Assembly (NCBI GenBank): GCA_015234045.1
Contig: JADFWU010000003.1
Location: 62,001 to 126,000, forward strand
Length of the DNA stretch: 64,000 bases
From: Magnetococcales bacterium
GTDB lineage: Bacteria; Pseudomonadota; Magnetococcia; Magnetococcales; JADFWU01
Direction: 5' to 3'
A model generated the notes under the pieces. The model had not been told where the DNA came from. It saw only the letters and a program-made list of their open reading frames with translations, and did not search any database. Shown one piece after another: positions 2,705 to 64,000 of the stretch. How positions within the stretch are numbered: the stretch's first letter is position 1; the number at the start of each line of letters is the position of its first letter. Made by a program: the position numbers and the translations under genes.

Positions 2705-5206
2705 ATGGATACTCAGAAAATTGGTAAAAATGAGGGCGTTGTTGGTTTAAAACCGTTCCGTTGTGGCGCTACTTGTCGATTGATGATCGGTTTAATTGGA
2801 TTGGCCATGCTGATTCTATTAGGCTATGGCGCAAGCCAGTTGATTGTCGGTGATGTATCTCAGAACCCTATCAGCTATCTCTCCATTACCCTGTTTGTCA
2901 CTCTGTTTGGCAGTGGTGTGCTCCTCTATTTTCTGTTCCATCGGCCTCAGTTGCGGGAAGTGATTGAAAATGAACAGATCCTTTCCAACAGTGCGCGATT
3001 AAATACACAGATGCGCGGTACGCATGATCCAGAACAGCTTTGTCAGGCTGCTTTGGATTTTCTGGCACCCAAACTTCACGCGCAGATCGGCGCTCTTTAT
3101 CTACTGAATGATGATGAACGCTCTCTTACTGTGGTTGCAGGTTATGGTATGGAACCGGGTTGGATAAAACAGGCTGATCTTTCTATCGGTGAAGGATTGA
3201 TCGGTCAGGTGGCGCGGGATAAAACCACACGCATGTTTCATGATTTGTCAGCGGATCAGGTATTGGTTCAAGCCGGGCCGCTTTCTTTGCATCCAAAAAG
3301 CATTTTGTTAGCTCCTTTGGTTCATGGTGAATTGGTTAAAGGGGTCATAATGCTTGGATCGATCCACGGCTTTGAGGATCTAAACCAGCGTTTTTTGGAT
3401 CGTGCATTCAGTTCAATTGCCATTGCGGTTGCGGGTGTCCGTTCTGCGCTACGTCACCAAGAACTGCTCAGTCAGACTGAAAAACAGAAAAACGAGCTGT
3501 CCAACCATCAACAAATGCTTCAGCACACCATCAAGGAACTGGAACAGGCCAGTCGGTACAAATCCCGATTTTTGGCCAGCATGTCTCATGAGTTGCGCTC
3601 ACCACTCAATAGTTTATTGATTTTATCTCAACTTCTGGAAGAGAACCGCGAGGGCAATCTGTCTGATAAACAGGTGGAGTTTGCCCAAACCATCCATTCA
3701 GCGGGAACGGATCTGCTTTCACTGATTGATGAAGTGTTGGATTTAGCACGAATCGAGGCGGGTAAGGTCCGTATCTATCTGGACCGGGTTAAGCTGAGTG
3801 AATTGGCGGATAGTCTGGATAGACTCTATCGCCATATCGCATTAAACAAAGGCATTGGGTTTCGGATTACGCTTAAAGGTGAGCTGCCCATCCATATCCA
3901 TAGTGACCGTCAACGGGTTGAACAGATATTAAAAAATCTACTCACCAATGCGATCAAGTTCACCGAGCAAGGTGCAGTGACCATGGATATCAGACCATGG
4001 ATTCCGCCGATTGAGCGTAAAGAACAGTTCAGCGCCGGTTCTCGTTGGATTGCTATTTCTGTAAAAGATACCGGTATTGGTATCCCGGAAGCACAGCAAA
4101 AGTTGATTTTTGAGCCCTTTAAGCAGGTGGATGATACCTCTACGAGAAAATATGGTGGAACCGGTTTAGGCTTGGCTATTTGTCAGGAGTTGAGCATCCT
4201 TCTGAAAGGTCAGATTGAACTGAGTAGTCGGGAAGGCGAGGGTAGTCGTTTTACCCTTTATCTGCCTTGGGAAGAGATGTCTGATGAAGAAGAGAGCCAG
4301 GAAGAGCAGGACAAGAAACAAGAGGATAAAAAGAAACTCACAGATACCGATGTAGAGTCTATTCGAGATGATCGGCGCAATATGCGTCCACATGACAAAG
4401 GTATCTTGATAGTCGGCAATGATCATGAGCAGGTCCGTCACCATCATGAAATCATTCAAAGCCGTGGTTTTGGTGTGGTGGTGGCGGGTGACTTGAGTTC
4501 TGCACTCTATCTTACCAACTATTTTCAGCCAATTGGTGTTGTGTTGGCAACAGCACTTCCGGGCGTGGACTCTAAAGGATTGATTGAAAAACTACGTCAA
4601 GCAATCGGTGGTGAGCGTGTATTGCCGGTATTTTTGCTCTCTTCCACCTCACTTCCAGCCATTGTTGGTAGTGATATCAAGGTGGTTAGTGCTGATGCAC
4701 CGAAAGAAGATGTTACAGCCCAGATTGAGGCATTTTTGGAGTTGGCGGTAACCAATCGAGTTAGTGATTCCAAAGAGGCGTTGACGAAAACAGTATCTGG
4801 CATATCTCAACCAAAAGAGGGACCGCATCAACTCAAGGGCCGTAAGATACTCATAGTTGAAGATGATTTGCGAAACATCTTTGCCATGACCAATCTGCTT
4901 GAAGGAGAGGGTGCAGAGGTGATTATGGCAAGAAATGGTTTGATTGGTTTGGAAAAACTCAAAGAGATTAAAGATATTGATATCGTTCTACTTGATATTA
5001 TGATGCCGGATATGGACGGCTATGAAGTGCTTCGTGAAATGCGGAGAGATCAGTCGTTACACGATATGCCGGTATTGGTTCTCACTGCAAAGGCGATGCA
5101 GGGCGAACGGAATCGCTGTTTGAAGGCTGGTGCGTCTGATTATCTGCCTAAACCTATTGATCCGCCAAAGCTTTTGGCTATGATTCACACTTGGCTGAAC
5201 CAATAG
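2705..5206 (+). CDS. Membrane hybrid sensor histidine kinase (GAF-HisKA-HATPase-pseudoREC-REC)
   Basis: 833 residues. Two transmembrane helices (about 25-48 and 58-78) with a very short loop between them argue against a large periplasmic sensor. A GAF domain follows (about 105-250), then a coiled coil and HisKA with the phospho-accepting His295 in ASMSHELRSP. The HATPase has the N box (NLLTNAIKF), G1 (DTGIGIP) and G2 (GGTGLGLAI). An acidic linker (about 522-540, DEEESQEEQDKKQEDKKK) leads to two receiver-like domains. The first (about 565-690) has VVLATALPGVD where the phospho-Asp should be, so it looks inactive. The second (about 715-833) is canonical (VEDD, VLLDIMMPDMDG, TAK). Input ligand and output partner are unknown. 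The ribosome binding site before 2705 is weak. The gene ends at a terminator shared with the convergent chemoreceptor. Confidence 0.9.
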   Translation: MDTQKIGKNEGVVGLKPFRCGATCRLMIGLIGLAMLILLGYGASQLIVGDVSQNPISYLSITLFVTLFGSGVLLYFLFHRPQLREVIENEQILSNSARLNTQMRGTHDPEQLCQAALDFLAPKLHAQIGALYLLNDDERSLTVVAGYGMEPGWIKQADLSIGEGLIGQVARDKTTRMFHDLSADQVLVQAGPLSLHPKSILLAPLVHGELVKGVIMLGSIHGFEDLNQRFLDRAFSSIAIAVAGVRSALRHQELLSQTEKQKNELSNHQQMLQHTIKELEQASRYKSRFLASMSHELRSPLNSLLILSQLLEENREGNLSDKQVEFAQTIHSAGTDLLSLIDEVLDLARIEAGKVRIYLDRVKLSELADSLDRLYRHIALNKGIGFRITLKGELPIHIHSDRQRVEQILKNLLTNAIKFTEQGAVTMDIRPWIPPIERKEQFSAGSRWIAISVKDTGIGIPEAQQKLIFEPFKQVDDTSTRKYGGTGLGLAICQELSILLKGQIELSSREGEGSRFTLYLPWEEMSDEEESQEEQDKKQEDKKKLTDTDVESIRDDRRNMRPHDKGILIVGNDHEQVRHHHEIIQSRGFGVVVAGDLSSALYLTNYFQPIGVVLATALPGVDSKGLIEKLRQAIGGERVLPVFLLSSTSLPAIVGSDIKVVSADAPKEDVTAQIEAFLELAVTNRVSDSKEALTKTVSGISQPKEGPHQLKGRKILIVEDDLRNIFAMTNLLEGEGAEVIMARNGLIGLEKLKEIKDIDIVLLDIMMPDMDGYEVLREMRRDQSLHDMPVLVLTAKAMQGERNRCLKAGASDYLPKPIDPPKLLAMIHTWLNQ

Positions 5207-59243: not shown

Positions 59244-59464
59244 GATACGCTTTCATAATTGGAGGTGAACCGGTGCAATTCAGTCGCCATGTCCATTGCC
59301 ATCCGATAGCCTCATAGTGGCGAAAAATCGTAACACCACCACAATAGAACAGAGTTGAAAATCTATCAAAAAAATAATGTCATGTTCTTGAAATTAGTTT
59401 CAGTATAAGTAGTCGATGATATGGCATTTAAAATGTGTGTTGGCGATATAATGAAGTTCAAAAC

Positions 59465-59752
59465 ATGCTTCAAGTGCATGACGACCAGCAACTGCTTCCT
59501 GAGTTTCTGGCCTGGCAGATCAACCAGGAGCCTGTTCAGCGATATTTACAGAGGTCGGCTACGGGAACCATTCAGCGTGGTCTACGGCGTGGTGACCTGG
59601 AGAGTCTACCGGTTTCGGTTCTCAGTTTGGAAACTCAGAGAGTGGTTATCGCTCTTCAGGATGTTGTTCAACGGGAAAAACAGCTTTTTCAAGATTTGAT
59701 CCAGAATCGGAAACAACAAATGCTGGCAGTGGTCCAGCAGGTTCTCAAATAA
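59465..59752 (+). CDS. Type I restriction S-subunit fragment
   Basis: 95 residues from ATG 59465 (MLQVHDDQQLLPEFLAWQIN). The sequence resembles the C-terminal part of an HsdS target-recognition domain plus the start of its coiled spacer: an LPEFLAWQINQEPVQRYLQR segment, GTIQRGLRRGDLESLPVSVL and a long helix (VVIALQDVVQREKQLFQDLI). It has no second half. It precedes hsdM by only 25 bp, on the same strand. Either an independent short S-like protein or the residue of a deleted hsdS; the short length alone does not decide. Confidence 0.6.
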   Translation: MLQVHDDQQLLPEFLAWQINQEPVQRYLQRSATGTIQRGLRRGDLESLPVSVLSLETQRVVIALQDVVQREKQLFQDLIQNRKQQMLAVVQQVLK

Positions 59753-59776: not shown

Positions 59777-61288
59777 ATGGTCAGCAAGGCAGTTAGTCAG
59801 GATGAAATCAATAAGGCGGTTTGGAACGCTTGTGATACCTTTCGAGGAACGGTGGACCCGAGTATCTACAAGGATTTTGTTCTCACCTTACTGTTCGTCA
59901 AATACATCAGCGATGTTTGGCGTGACCGTGAAGAACACTATCGATCAGAGTATGGCAACGAGCCTGCTTTGATTGCTGAGATGATGAAGAATGAGCGGTT
60001 TGTTCTCCCTGAAGCCGCTGGCTTCTACTCTCTTCACAAGCACCGTCACGAGCCTGGTAATGGTGAGCGTATTGACAAGGCGTTGCATGCCATTGAAGAA
60101 GCGAATATCAACAAGCTGCGTGATGTCTTTCAGGACATCTCTTTCAATAGCAATAAGCTGGGTGATGAGGCTCAGAAGAACGATATCCTTCGCCACTTGC
60201 TGGAAGACTTCGCCAAGTCTGAACTGGATCTTCGTCCCAGTCGCGTGGGTAAGTTGGACATCATCGGCAATGCCTATGAATTCCTTATCAAGAACTTTGC
60301 TGCGACATCGGGTAAAAAGGCTGGTGAGTTCTACACACCACCAGAGGTTTCAGAACTGATCTCTGAGTTGGTAGAGCCTCAGGAAGGCGATGAGATCTGT
60401 GACCCGGCTTGTGGTTCAGGCTCTTTGTTGATGAAGTGTGGACGGCAGGTATTCAATAAGATTGGTTCCAGAAAATATGCCCTGTTCGGTCAGGAGGCTA
60501 TCGGCAGTACCTGGGCATTGGCAAAGATGAATATGTTCCTTCACAGTGAAGACAACCACCGAATCGAGTGGGGAGACACCATCCGCAACCCCAAGTTGCT
60601 GGATGGTGATGATAAGCTGCGTCACTTCGATATCGTCGTAGCCAATCCACCCTTTAGCCTTCAAAAATGGGGGCATGAACAGGCGGAAACTGATCGTTTC
60701 AGTAGATTCCGCCGGGGCGTTCCACCCAAGACCAAGGGTGACTACGCTTTCATCCTCCATATGATCGAGACTTTGAAACCAGGTAGTGGACGCATGGGTG
60801 TTGTTGTTCCACACGGCGTTCTCTTTCGAGGAGCTGCTGAAGGGAAGATCCGAAAGAAGCTGATTGAAGAGAACCTTCTGGATGTAGTGATTGGGCTCCC
60901 TGAAAAACTCTTCTACGGCACCGGAATTCCAGCGGCGATTCTGATTTTTCGGAAGAAGAAGAGCGATAAAAGCGTTCTGTTTGTCGATGCCAGTCGAGAG
61001 TACCGTGACGGCAAGAACCAAAATTTCCTTGAAGAAGAGCATATCAACAAGGTTGTGGAGACAGTTGGTGCACGGGAAACAGTAGACAAATACGCTTACC
61101 TTGCCACCCCTGAAGAAATCGCTGAAAACGACTTCAATCTCAATATTCCTCGCTATGTAGATACCTTTGAAGAGGAAGAAGAGATCGACCTGATGGCGGT
61201 ACGCGATGAACGGGAGAAGTTGAAAGCAGAATTGGTGGAGCTTGAGGTGGAGATGGAAGGGTATTTAAAGGAGCTGGGGTATGAGTAA
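59777..61288 (+). CDS. hsdM: Type I restriction-modification DNA methyltransferase subunit
   Basis: 503 residues from ATG 59777 (MVSKAVSQDEINKAVWNACD); a GTG 59759 in frame is possible. N-terminal HsdM_N helical domain (about 8-140), then N6-adenine methylase: SAM-binding DPACGSGSLLMKC, catalytic NPPF (ANPPFSLQKWG), and TGIPAAILIFRKKK. The C-terminal coiled coil (VRDEREKLKAELVELEVEME) contacts HsdS. Known: HsdM2S methylates one adenine on each strand of a bipartite site. The final 93 bases recur after dinD. No hsdR is in the window. Confidence 0.95.
   Translation: MVSKAVSQDEINKAVWNACDTFRGTVDPSIYKDFVLTLLFVKYISDVWRDREEHYRSEYGNEPALIAEMMKNERFVLPEAAGFYSLHKHRHEPGNGERIDKALHAIEEANINKLRDVFQDISFNSNKLGDEAQKNDILRHLLEDFAKSELDLRPSRVGKLDIIGNAYEFLIKNFAATSGKKAGEFYTPPEVSELISELVEPQEGDEICDPACGSGSLLMKCGRQVFNKIGSRKYALFGQEAIGSTWALAKMNMFLHSEDNHRIEWGDTIRNPKLLDGDDKLRHFDIVVANPPFSLQKWGHEQAETDRFSRFRRGVPPKTKGDYAFILHMIETLKPGSGRMGVVVPHGVLFRGAAEGKIRKKLIEENLLDVVIGLPEKLFYGTGIPAAILIFRKKKSDKSVLFVDASREYRDGKNQNFLEEEHINKVVETVGARETVDKYAYLATPEEIAENDFNLNIPRYVDTFEEEEEIDLMAVRDEREKLKAELVELEVEMEGYLKELGYE
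61191..61283 (+). repeat. 93-bp direct repeat, copy 1 (hsdM 3' end)
   Basis: Covers the last part of hsdM, from TGATGGCGGTACG to the ATG that starts dinD. It aligns without gaps to 62139-62231 with about 14 mismatches (roughly 85% identity). Confidence 0.85.
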
Positions 61289-62141
61289 GGAATTACAACA
61301 GCAGCATGTTATGACGTTTGAGGAACTCAAACAAAGTGATCAAAATGGCGTCGAATTTTGGTTTGGTCGGGATCTCCAAGGACCACTGGACTATGATTCA
61401 TGGCGCTCTTTTGAGCGCGTGATTATCAAAGCGCAAACCGCTTGCAAGAACTCTGGTCAGATGATCGAGGACCATTTTGTTCAGGTGGACAAAATGGTCC
61501 CAATCGGATCGGGAGCGGCACGCAACATATTGGATTATAAGCTATCTCGCTACGCCTGTTATTTGATTGTACAAAATGCTGATGCGGCTAAGCCGGTTAT
61601 TGCACACGGTCAAAGCTATTTTGCCGTTCAAACGCGCCGTCAGGAACTTCAGGACAATGATTCGTTCAGAAGTATGTCCGAAGATCAAAAGCGTTTAATG
61701 TTGCGTAATGAACTGAAAGAGCATAACAAAAATCTGGTTGCCACAGCTCATAGAGCCGGAGTTGAGAGCAATCTCGACTTTGCCATATTTCAAGACCATG
61801 GTTACAAAGGGCTTTATGGCGGTCTTGGTGCCAAAGAGATTCATACTCACAAAGGGTTGAAAAAAAGTCATAAAATATTGGACCACATGGGCAGCACCGA
61901 GCTAGCAGCCAACCTGTTTCGCGCAACACAAACTGAAGAAAAATTACGTCGAGATGAAGTCCAAGGGAAAAAACAGGCCAACAGCACCCATTATCAAGTG
62001 GGGCGCAAGGTGCGACAAACCATTGAGGAGTTGGGTGGTACCATGCCGGAAGATCTTCCTGTTCCAGATCAATCCATTCAGCAGCTGGAGCGCTCGCAGA
62101 AAAAGAGGGGCATTGCCTCCAAGTCACGGGGAAGTAAATGA
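61281..62141 (+). CDS. dinD: DNA-damage-inducible protein D (DinD) homologue
   Basis: 286 residues, similar length to E. coli DinD. Family segments: GVEFWFGRDLQGPLDYDSWR (N-terminal BRO-N/P63C-like segment), ILDYKLSRYACYLIVQNAD, YFAVQTRRQEL, and FQDHGYKGLYGGLGAKEIH. Basic C-terminus. Known: E. coli DinD is LexA-regulated and inhibits RecA filaments. No LexA box is seen at this internal position, so expression would follow the RM operon. Its ATG overlaps the hsdM stop by 8 bases, exactly where hsdS would be expected to start. It is flanked by the 93-bp duplication, so it appears inserted. Confidence 0.9.
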   Translation: MSKELQQQHVMTFEELKQSDQNGVEFWFGRDLQGPLDYDSWRSFERVIIKAQTACKNSGQMIEDHFVQVDKMVPIGSGAARNILDYKLSRYACYLIVQNADAAKPVIAHGQSYFAVQTRRQELQDNDSFRSMSEDQKRLMLRNELKEHNKNLVATAHRAGVESNLDFAIFQDHGYKGLYGGLGAKEIHTHKGLKKSHKILDHMGSTELAANLFRATQTEEKLRRDEVQGKKQANSTHYQVGRKVRQTIEELGGTMPEDLPVPDQSIQQLERSQKKRGIASKSRGSK

Positions 62142-62239
62142 TGGCGGTACGTGATGAGCATGAGAAGTTGAAGGCGGAGTTGTCTGCACTTGAGGTGGAG
62201 ATGGAAGGGTATTTGAAGGAGCTGGGTTATGGTTCCTGA
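62138..62239 (+). CDS. 33-codon duplicated hsdM tail (translational-coupling mini-gene)
   Basis: ATG 62138 overlaps the dinD stop (ATGA) and encodes MMAVRDEHEKLKAELS... ending LKELGYGS, a near copy of the HsdM C-terminus. It terminates 11 bases inside hsdS. If translated, it would reproduce the hsdM-hsdS coupling. Too short to act as an enzyme; may instead be an untranslated relic. Confidence 0.55.
   Translation: MMAVRDEHEKLKAELSALEVEMEGYLKELGYGS
62139..62231 (+). repeat. 93-bp direct repeat, copy 2
   Basis: Matches 61191-61283 in a gapless alignment; the end coincides with the ATG of hsdS just as copy 1 ends at the ATG of dinD. Confidence 0.85.
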
Positions 62240-63512
62240 GGGGTGGAAACTATGGAAACTTTGCGATTTGAGTCAAACAAAGATCGGAAATGGTGCTTTT
62301 AATGATCCGAAACGAGTTGGTAAAGGTTACAAGTTAATAAATGTCGTGAACCTTTATACTCCAAGGCAAATCAATCCTAACGAATTGAAAAGGCTTGATT
62401 TATCAGAAAAAGAATTCCGGACTTTTAAAGTTGAAAAAGGAGATGTTTTTTTTACCCGCTCATCTCTTAAGGTCGAAGGGATTGCGCATTGTAATATTTA
62501 CGACACATATGAAGAAGATGTGGTTTATGAATGCCATATAATGCGTGTCCGACCTAAACAGAATCTTGTTGTTCCAAAATTTCTCCTTGAATTTTGTATA
62601 TCATATCAAGCAAGAAAATATTTCATGTCTCACGCAAAAACTGGGACGATGACTACAATTGACCAAAAAGGTGTTGGTGGTCTTTCAGTTCCACTTCCAC
62701 CACTCCCCGAGCAAAAGAAAATAGCCCGCATCCTCTCCACCTGGGACCGAGCCATTGAGACCGTGGAGCGGCTGATCGAGAACAGTAAGGCGCAGAAGAA
62801 AGCCCTGATGCAGCAGTTGCTGACGGGGAAGAAGCGGTTTCCTGGGTTTGGTAAGCCGAGTGTTGATGGTGAGTTGCCTGAGGGGTGGGAAGACATTCGA
62901 CTTGGCATGCTAGGTTCAAAATCACGGCCTGCAATTAAAGCTGGTCCATTTGGATCATCCCTCAAGAAAGAAACTTACTCAATAACGGGATACAAAATAT
63001 ATGGTCAAGAACAAGTCATAGCCGATGATCCCTTCTATGGGGACTATTATATCCCTGAAGAAAAATACCAAGAACTAATTTCTTGTTCTGTACAGCCTGG
63101 AGATATCCTGATTAGCCTTGTTGGAACAATTGGCCGTGTTCTTCTCATACCTAATGATGCAGAGTTGGGCGTCATAAACCCGAGACTTCTCCGTCTTTCA
63201 TTTGATAGTAAACGAGTTTTTCCACAATTTGTGAGACACCTCTTTGACTTTCAAATAATTATTAACAAGCTCCGGAGTTGGGCACAAGGTGGCACGATGG
63301 GAGTTCTGAGTGCAGCTACACTAAAAGCACTACCAATCCTACTTCCATCCCTTCCTGAGCAAAAGAAGATCGCTCACACTCTCTTTTCCTGTGATCAAGG
63401 TATTCAAAATCTAGAACAGCAATTCACCAAACTCCAAACCCAGAAAAAAGCCCTCATGCAACAACTCCTCACTGGCAAGCGGCGGGTGATGGTCGATGAG
63501 GTGGCTGCATGA
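62229..63512 (+). CDS. hsdS: Type I restriction-modification specificity subunit
   Basis: 427 residues. Two target-recognition domains: TRD1 (about 1-155) and TRD2 (about 218-370). Each is followed by a conserved coiled spacer: PLPPLPEQKKIARIL...AQKKALMQQLLTGKKRF and LPSLPEQKKIAHTL...TQKKALMQQLLTGKRRV. The two spacers are near repeats of each other also at DNA level, allowing domain shuffling. The start ATG 62229 lies inside the duplicated hsdM tail, overlapping the mini-gene. The recognition sequence cannot be read from the protein. Its stop overlaps the DUF3800 gene start. Confidence 0.95.
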   Translation: MVPEGWKLWKLCDLSQTKIGNGAFNDPKRVGKGYKLINVVNLYTPRQINPNELKRLDLSEKEFRTFKVEKGDVFFTRSSLKVEGIAHCNIYDTYEEDVVYECHIMRVRPKQNLVVPKFLLEFCISYQARKYFMSHAKTGTMTTIDQKGVGGLSVPLPPLPEQKKIARILSTWDRAIETVERLIENSKAQKKALMQQLLTGKKRFPGFGKPSVDGELPEGWEDIRLGMLGSKSRPAIKAGPFGSSLKKETYSITGYKIYGQEQVIADDPFYGDYYIPEEKYQELISCSVQPGDILISLVGTIGRVLLIPNDAELGVINPRLLRLSFDSKRVFPQFVRHLFDFQIIINKLRSWAQGGTMGVLSAATLKALPILLPSLPEQKKIAHTLFSCDQGIQNLEQQFTKLQTQKKALMQQLLTGKRRVMVDEVAA

Positions 63513-64000
63513 GTGGTTGTGTCTATGTATTCCTGGATGAAGGGGGTAACTTTGATTTTAGTGTCAATGGAACCAAGCACTTTGTGATCACCAGCGTGAC
63601 CGTCTCCCGCCCCTTTCCGGGTCATCAAAAGCTTGATGTTTACAAACATGATTTGATTGAGGATGGTTACCCTCACGAATACTTCCACTGCTCGGAAGAC
63701 AACAGCCATGTTCGTGGAAAGGTTTTCGGTATCATTGCTGATCATCTGGGCGGTATGCGAATCGATAGCCTGATTGTTGAAAAATGTAAAACCGGTCCAT
63801 CTCTTCGAGAAGAGAGTCAGTTTTACCCCAGAATGCTGGGCTATCTTCTGAAACATGTCCTTGAGAGAATTCAGGCTGCCAATGACCGTGAAATTGTGGT
63901 GATCACCGATACCATACCGGTTCAGAAAAAGCGAAGAGCCATTGAAAAAGCAGTGAAGGTGACGCTCAAGGAAATGCTGTCAGCAGACACACCCTTCCGA
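63509..64000 (+). CDS. DUF3800 protein, 3' part cut off by window edge
   Basis: 164 codons visible, running off the window. The ATG 63509 overlaps the hsdS stop (ATGA), so it belongs to the RM operon. N-terminal VYVFLDEGGNFDFS is the DUF3800 acidic motif (D-E-x-G-x); later HCSEDNSHVRGKVFGIIADH and EIVVITDTIPVQKKRRAI. The family has a RNase H-like core, with the Asp/Glu residues as probable metal ligands, and occurs often in defence loci. Inference: a nuclease or accessory factor of this type I system. Confidence 0.85.
   Translation, partial: MSGCVYVFLDEGGNFDFSVNGTKHFVITSVTVSRPFPGHQKLDVYKHDLIEDGYPHEYFHCSEDNSHVRGKVFGIIADHLGGMRIDSLIVEKCKTGPSLREESQFYPRMLGYLLKHVLERIQAANDREIVVITDTIPVQKKRRAIEKAVKVTLKEMLSADTPFR

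Follow-up and report, generated by a model that had tools for sequence, protein, structure and literature searches.

Within a type I restriction-modification (RM) operon that fills the last 5 kb of the window (the whole 64,000-nucleotide stretch of DNA that was analysed), the gene dinD lies at the junction of hsdM and hsdS, and the 3' end of hsdM is repeated behind it. The order hsdM-dinD-hsdS is of a known kind, seen many times; the duplicated methylase tail is a rare and informative variant. The account preferred here, which is on balance probable when its parts are taken together, combines an accessory-gene slot bounded by the hsdM 3' end, a relay of translation through the repeated tail, an origin by recombination, and a role for DinD in binding DNA breaks. 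Defence genes are often embedded in RM operons, and that position serves as a hint for predicting new ones. The features of the locus are:

59435-59752, plus strand: half-HsdS remnant with one TRD, 5'-truncated (matches HsdS C-terminal parts in PADLOC)
59777-61288, plus strand: hsdM, type I m6A methyltransferase, the ORF being open from 59759 (TIGR00497, 277 bits; PF02384; PF12161)
61191-61283, plus strand: tail copy 1, the hsdM 3' end, bearing AAGGAG, 7 nt and the dinD ATG (repeat search)
61281-62141, plus strand: dinD, 286 aa, start codon within hsdM (NF008573, 444.9 bits; PADLOC PDC-S13, 405.6 bits)
62138-62239, plus strand: 33-codon frame of tail copy 2, with an ATGA overlap with the dinD stop and its own stop within hsdS
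62139-62231, plus strand: tail copy 2, the hsdM 3' end repeated, bearing AAGGAG, 7 nt and the hsdS ATG (repeat search)
62229-63512, plus strand: hsdS, specificity subunit with two TRDs (PF01420, 98.6 bits, two stretches)
63509-64000, plus strand: DUF3800 gene, running past the window end (profile match)

Beyond the window, on the same contig and 3' of the DUF3800 gene, lie hsdR and a SprT-like metalloprotease gene. The type I gene set (hsdM, hsdS with its TRDs, and hsdR) is complete in one locus, and methylation and restriction activity are predicted from it. The DUF3800 gene lies between hsdS and hsdR and shares bases with the hsdS stop; its match to PADLOC DUF3800_VII is weak (33 bits). DinD passes the curated cut-off of NCBIfam NF008573 over residues 1-276 (444.9 versus 242 bits) and matches PADLOC PDC-S13, a candidate defence label with no mechanism attached, over residues 1-277. 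It also matches PADLOC Specificity_I PDLC03083 (384.8 bits), a model of 717 positions whose N-terminal part corresponds to DinD, whereas dinD in the window is a separate gene. The half-HsdS upstream of hsdM lacks its N-terminal half; full-length versions of 208-209 aa lie 5' of hsdM in two related loci (L080 and L081), and intact forms of ~200 aa occur 5' of hsdM or of dinD-hsdM in most relatives. Such proteins may represent a small, conserved specificity-type subunit that belongs to the window's HsdM subfamily.

A preliminary description of this DNA had reported a 93-bp repeat of the hsdM end behind dinD, the placement of dinD exactly at the hsdM/hsdS junction with both following genes starting at a tail ATG, and a 33-codon frame overlapping both the dinD stop and the hsdS start; all three observations are confirmed. 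The direct repeat is gapless over 93 nt, with 79/93 positions identical (14 mismatches) at a spacing of 948. Elsewhere in the 64 kb, on both strands, the best 93-nt placement reaches 43/93 (mean 23.2, sd 4.4); the observed value lies 12.8 sd out, which rules out a chance repeat. Its edges are sharp: there are 0 nt of extension on either side, and the 30 nt upstream agree at only 7/30 positions, that is, at background level. The last codon of each copy is the ATG of the next gene (61281-61283 for dinD, 62229-62231 for hsdS). The mini-frame at 62138-62239 comprises 33 codons and a stop (translation MMAVRDEHEKLKAELSALEVEMEGYLKELGYGS); its start shares ATGA with the dinD TGA (62139-62141), and it terminates 8 nt beyond the hsdS ATG.

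Because the two copies differ at 14 sites, the repeat is not a single copy that was assembled twice. A chimera, in which hsdM-dinD of one strain was joined by the assembler to hsdM-hsdS of another, is very improbable: the source assembly is indeed MAG-like and fragmented (117 contigs) and the junction is known from this genome only, but neither joint breaks a frame, stops and starts overlap exactly, and upstream of the joint between dinD and copy 2 the copies have no sequence in common that could mislead an assembler.

The point of the repeat becomes apparent from the final codons of hsdM. In the window's HsdM subfamily these encode Lys-Glu-Leu-Gly-Tyr as AAG GAG CTG GGN TAT G, and the same codons constitute a Shine-Dalgarno sequence (AAGGAG), a 7-nt spacer and the next gene's ATG, which lies inside GGN-TATG; both window copies thus have an overlapping stop/start with the Shine-Dalgarno sequence inside hsdM tail sequence (AAGGAG-7-ATG). 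The Glu codon within the Shine-Dalgarno sequence is GAG in 19 of 21 hsdM genes, where the codon use of these genes would predict 8.4 (simulated P < 5e-6; GAG makes up 9-80% of the Glu codons elsewhere in them), and differs from the other Glu codons of the same tails, which are GAG in 45% of cases (Fisher P 5e-5), both P values treating as independent related genes that are not fully so. The geometry is kept in relatives whatever gene comes next: hsdS (L124, L129-L133), a Bro-N gene (L127/L205, with GGATATGAGTAAGG, which matches window copy 1), an ORF6N/RhuM gene (L128/L204) or PDDEXK nuclease genes (L207, L211). The nearest direct hsdM-hsdS locus, L080 (89% HsdM identity), has the same junction as copy 2 and hsdS of the window, with TATGGTTCCTGA in both and an HsdM ending in GYGS. 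At the level of sequence, this establishes a dual use of the hsdM tail, as peptide and as Shine-Dalgarno sequence, that is new here for the window's HsdM subfamily. Because the last codons of hsdM are at once Shine-Dalgarno sequence, spacer and start codon, a guest gene placed at the tail ATG is positioned for translation along with hsdM and would capture the initiation signal of hsdS. The hsdM 3' end likewise overlaps the hsdS start in EcoKI, where the overlap is known to be translationally coupled (PMC3510504); coupling is established for EcoKI, whereas in the window the geometry points to it. EcoKI further differs in having a 1-nt overlap, no inserted gene and no second tail (PMC3510504).

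The preliminary description knew of no account of this exact arrangement, but the arrangement is not a one-off. Among 76 dinD loci obtained by scanning bacterial and archaeal genomes for DinD, hsdM lies immediately 5' of dinD in 18 (16 of which have hsdS visible downstream) and dinD immediately 5' of hsdM in 7; moreover, Btr190I of Bibersteinia trehalosi 190, in which dinD is fused to the hsdS 5' end and the methylase is active, has been published (PMC4996451). Like the window, Btr190I has dinD between hsdM and hsdS, where it is replaced as a block with hsdS (PMC4996451); unlike the window, in which dinD is a separate gene, it has the fusion, and no hsdM-tail repeat is reported for it (PMC4996451). 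Hosts of RM-linked dinD include Geobacter, Methylomonas, Acinetobacter, Campylobacterales, Clostridia, a spirochaete and Fermentibacteria, and hsdM-dinD-hsdS is found in many phyla. On a DinD tree the hsdM-dinD label needs about 11 changes, of which strongly supported branches force at least 3; RM-linked dinD is polyphyletic, and dinD has therefore entered type I operons repeatedly.

In several Clostridia (L046, L057, L066) dinD and hsdS share a frame with little beyond a stop codon between them, a state near the Btr190I fusion. A Neisseria gonorrhoeae locus (L142) has the order hsdM-dinD-two short hsdS ORFs-hsdR and looks like NgoAV; a search of the NgoAV paper for dinD found no mention of it.

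Many unrelated genes besides dinD also occupy the slot, among them Bro-N, ORF6N/RhuM, PDDEXK nuclease and TIR-like genes. The TIR-like genes, another defence-type insert in the same slot, separate hsdM from hsdS on an IMG/VR contig (L171:6768-8372). Judging by analogy, part of the pattern may simply reflect a landing place for defence genes, as PrrC and DarTG2 have found elsewhere. EcoprrI/PrrC resembles the window in having an accessory defence gene inside a type I operon (PMC12707154), though the gene is a different one and no tail repeat is described in the available part of that source (PMC12707154); likewise the RptR island has DarTG2 defence genes embedded in a type I locus (PMC12255303), but between hsdS and hsdR, and the available part of its description mentions no tail repeat (PMC12255303).

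The preliminary description had also called for a search for hsdM-X-hsdS loci and for tail repeats around X. Such loci are many, with dinD or another gene as X, but a tail repeat brackets X in the window alone: when each locus was scanned with its own hsdM tail, a repeat was found in 1 of 41 distinct hsdM-X-hsdS loci (23 with detected dinD; one broken-hsdM locus was counted twice by the script) and in 0 of 42 direct hsdM-hsdS loci, counts that are not natural frequencies because many loci were found via dinD. In most dinD loci of this kind the end of dinD itself overlaps or abuts hsdS. Hence the earlier proposal that dinD was inserted, by recombination or duplication, without breaking the coupling survives in part: the overlap is preserved and recombination fits best, but a tail repeat is not generally needed, since the dinD end usually meets hsdS.

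One further locus has extra tails. In L069 (Omnitrophota), whose contig ends before hsdS and which is therefore outside the 41-locus set, the order is hsdM, a DUF1016/PDDEXK-type gene, an hsdM-tail copy, a KilA-N gene, an hsdM-tail copy and dinD, the guest genes being named from a reading of their sequences. Three hsdM tails lie within L069:1560-3760: the gene's own end and copies at about 2780-2833 and 3683-3737. The extra tails score 67 and 66 versus a shuffled maximum of 36, and share 14 nt upstream (ATTAAAGATATAAA) that the hsdM of this locus does not have, as though the guest genes had brought their donors' hsdM tails with them. A search for phage DNA matching the L069 tail found none. 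A general rule that inserts are bracketed by tails was considered and dropped, with 1 of the 41 loci and L069 as its only instances. L069 is an independent parallel to the window; two unrelated loci do not yet make a class, though they justify looking for more.

How the window came by its second tail is suggested by the differences between the copies, 10/14 of which fall at third codon positions (dN 0.068, dS 0.866, dN/dS 0.08). Such a bias and such a ratio are expected of two diverged working hsdM alleles, although selection on the mini-frame could equally explain them; the divergence of the copies suggests the joining of two such alleles. A plain tandem duplication of the hsdM 3' end within one genome, with dinD between the copies and divergence afterwards, would account for the fact that the window copies are nearer each other (85% identical) than to any other hsdM tail examined (68-81%); it is nonetheless improbable, inasmuch as neutral drift predicts about 1/3 third-position changes instead of the 10/14 seen. 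Just as improbable is that the mini-frame is translated into a working peptide, namely the HsdM C-terminal helix on its own, which would bind HsdS or compete with HsdM. The third-position bias would agree with this, and the helix has been modelled beside HsdS, with a proposal that in type IB systems it became part of HsdS (PMC3510504). Yet the bias fits two hsdM alleles equally well, the L069 copies have no convincing start codons for the whole helix, and a tail-peptide search of 274 gammaproteobacterial genomes found no standalone hsdM tail. DNA identity to relatives gave no decision as to the ancestral copy, both being about equidistant, and comparison of hsdM with L080 and L081 revealed no clear step of the kind a mosaic breakpoint would leave.

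According to the preferred account, the type I operon has an accessory-gene slot that is bounded by the 3' end of hsdM. An hsdM-dinD segment from a related type I locus would have recombined into a resident hsdM-hsdS locus. The exchange would have been homologous at its hsdM end and closed by a short illegitimate joint (TGA) within the tail of the resident hsdM, so that the final 93 bp of that gene remained in place together with hsdS as one coupled unit. In the window dinD holds the first tail signal; the second hsdM tail, opened by the dinD ATGA, gives hsdS an equivalent one, its mini-frame running through the copied Shine-Dalgarno sequence. Translation would be relayed from hsdM to dinD, to the 33-codon tail frame and to hsdS, a path whose geometry is seen in the window and from which coupling is presumed.

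The events may also have occurred in the reverse order: hsdM-dinD-hsdS would have come first, and a new hsdS, carrying 93 bp of its own hsdM, would have replaced the old one in a switch of specificity. This is possible but rather doubtful. Type I S genes do swap through conserved hsdM and hsdR flanks, as in Btr190I versus Btr188II (PMC4996451); repeat-free hsdM-dinD-hsdS is the commoner state; and the dinD end in the window gives ATGA as in L003, L007 and L010, as if it had once served hsdS directly. On the other hand, hsdS replacement and dinD insertion leave an identical product, and nothing in the window separates the two. Somewhat less probable still is the broader idea that hsdM 3' ends are cassette boundaries, each defence gene travelling with the preceding tail as a portable ribosome-binding and recombination element; if this were true, type I operons would gain, stack and lose genes at the hsdM/hsdS junction, with every downstream gene staying coupled. 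An example of stacking is L069, where three accessory genes follow hsdM in succession and two of these have a tail copy of their own in front.

As to what DinD contributes, the last and weakest step of the preferred account is that DinD would be a DNA-break-binding accessory protein, produced in step with the methylase and acting on restriction-made ends. DinD is known as an SOS protein. No perfect E. coli-type LexA box was found at RM-linked dinD genes; most stand-alone relatives also lack one and the E. coli control has one, which makes the absence no guide to SOS control. Conservation of the protein is strong, with 56-68% identity to the window's DinD across phyla, and its AlphaFold model (mean pLDDT 89.8) resembles DdrC of Deinococcus radiodurans (8u0g, 7qvb, 7udi) along most of its length (Foldseek E down to 1.4e-5, probability 1.00), as well as, weakly, phage antirepressor-type Bro-N/KilA-N proteins. 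The structural hits to DdrC (E <= 0.001) have TM-scores of 0.31-0.47 over all domains, an rmsd of 17-20 A and about 18% identity; a sequence profile built from 42 DinD sequences did not find the DdrC chains, and a search of solved structures by DinD sequence found none relevant. Because it is invisible to the profile and its global TM-scores are low, the likeness to DdrC is best treated as a lead. Single- and double-stranded DNA are both bound by DdrC, which shields DNA from nucleases and promotes the circularisation of linear DNA (PMC5436757); unlike the window's DinD, it is part of a radiation response and not of RM. Among the papers listed by a literature search, a single one names both DinD and DdrC, each once. 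A reasonable hypothesis is that a break-binding DinD works alongside an enzyme that makes breaks, to whose specificity subunit it is joined in some systems.

The preliminary description had instead proposed a related idea, a module in which DinD, co-produced with the RM enzyme, would prevent RecA from repairing cleaved DNA, or host DNA while an RM system is being acquired. In its favour, dinD is recurrent and polyphyletic at the slot and is fused to hsdS in Btr190I, and PDLC03083 has a DinD-like N-terminal part, so that a physical or functional tie of DinD to the RM enzyme is likely; in E. coli, moreover, RecA filaments are a target of DinD (Uranga 2011, cited in PMC10602874). No connection with RecA is known for the other inserts at the slot (PDDEXK nucleases, RhuM, TIR-like genes), as would be expected if the slot took up defence genes in general, and in pneumococcus a dinD-like gene was not the main cause of a mobile-element block to transformation. 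The module is regarded as rather doubtful, and a break-binding DinD remains the preferred reading.

The entry of a gene into the middle of a translationally coupled operon is rarely visible, and the window keeps the joint. The methylase tail encodes protein and at the same time serves the next gene as ribosome-binding site, and its copy would admit a guest while hsdS keeps its signal; extra hsdM tails accordingly offer a simple search rule for recently acquired guest genes. More generally, DinD emerges as a recurrent partner of type I RM systems in many phyla.
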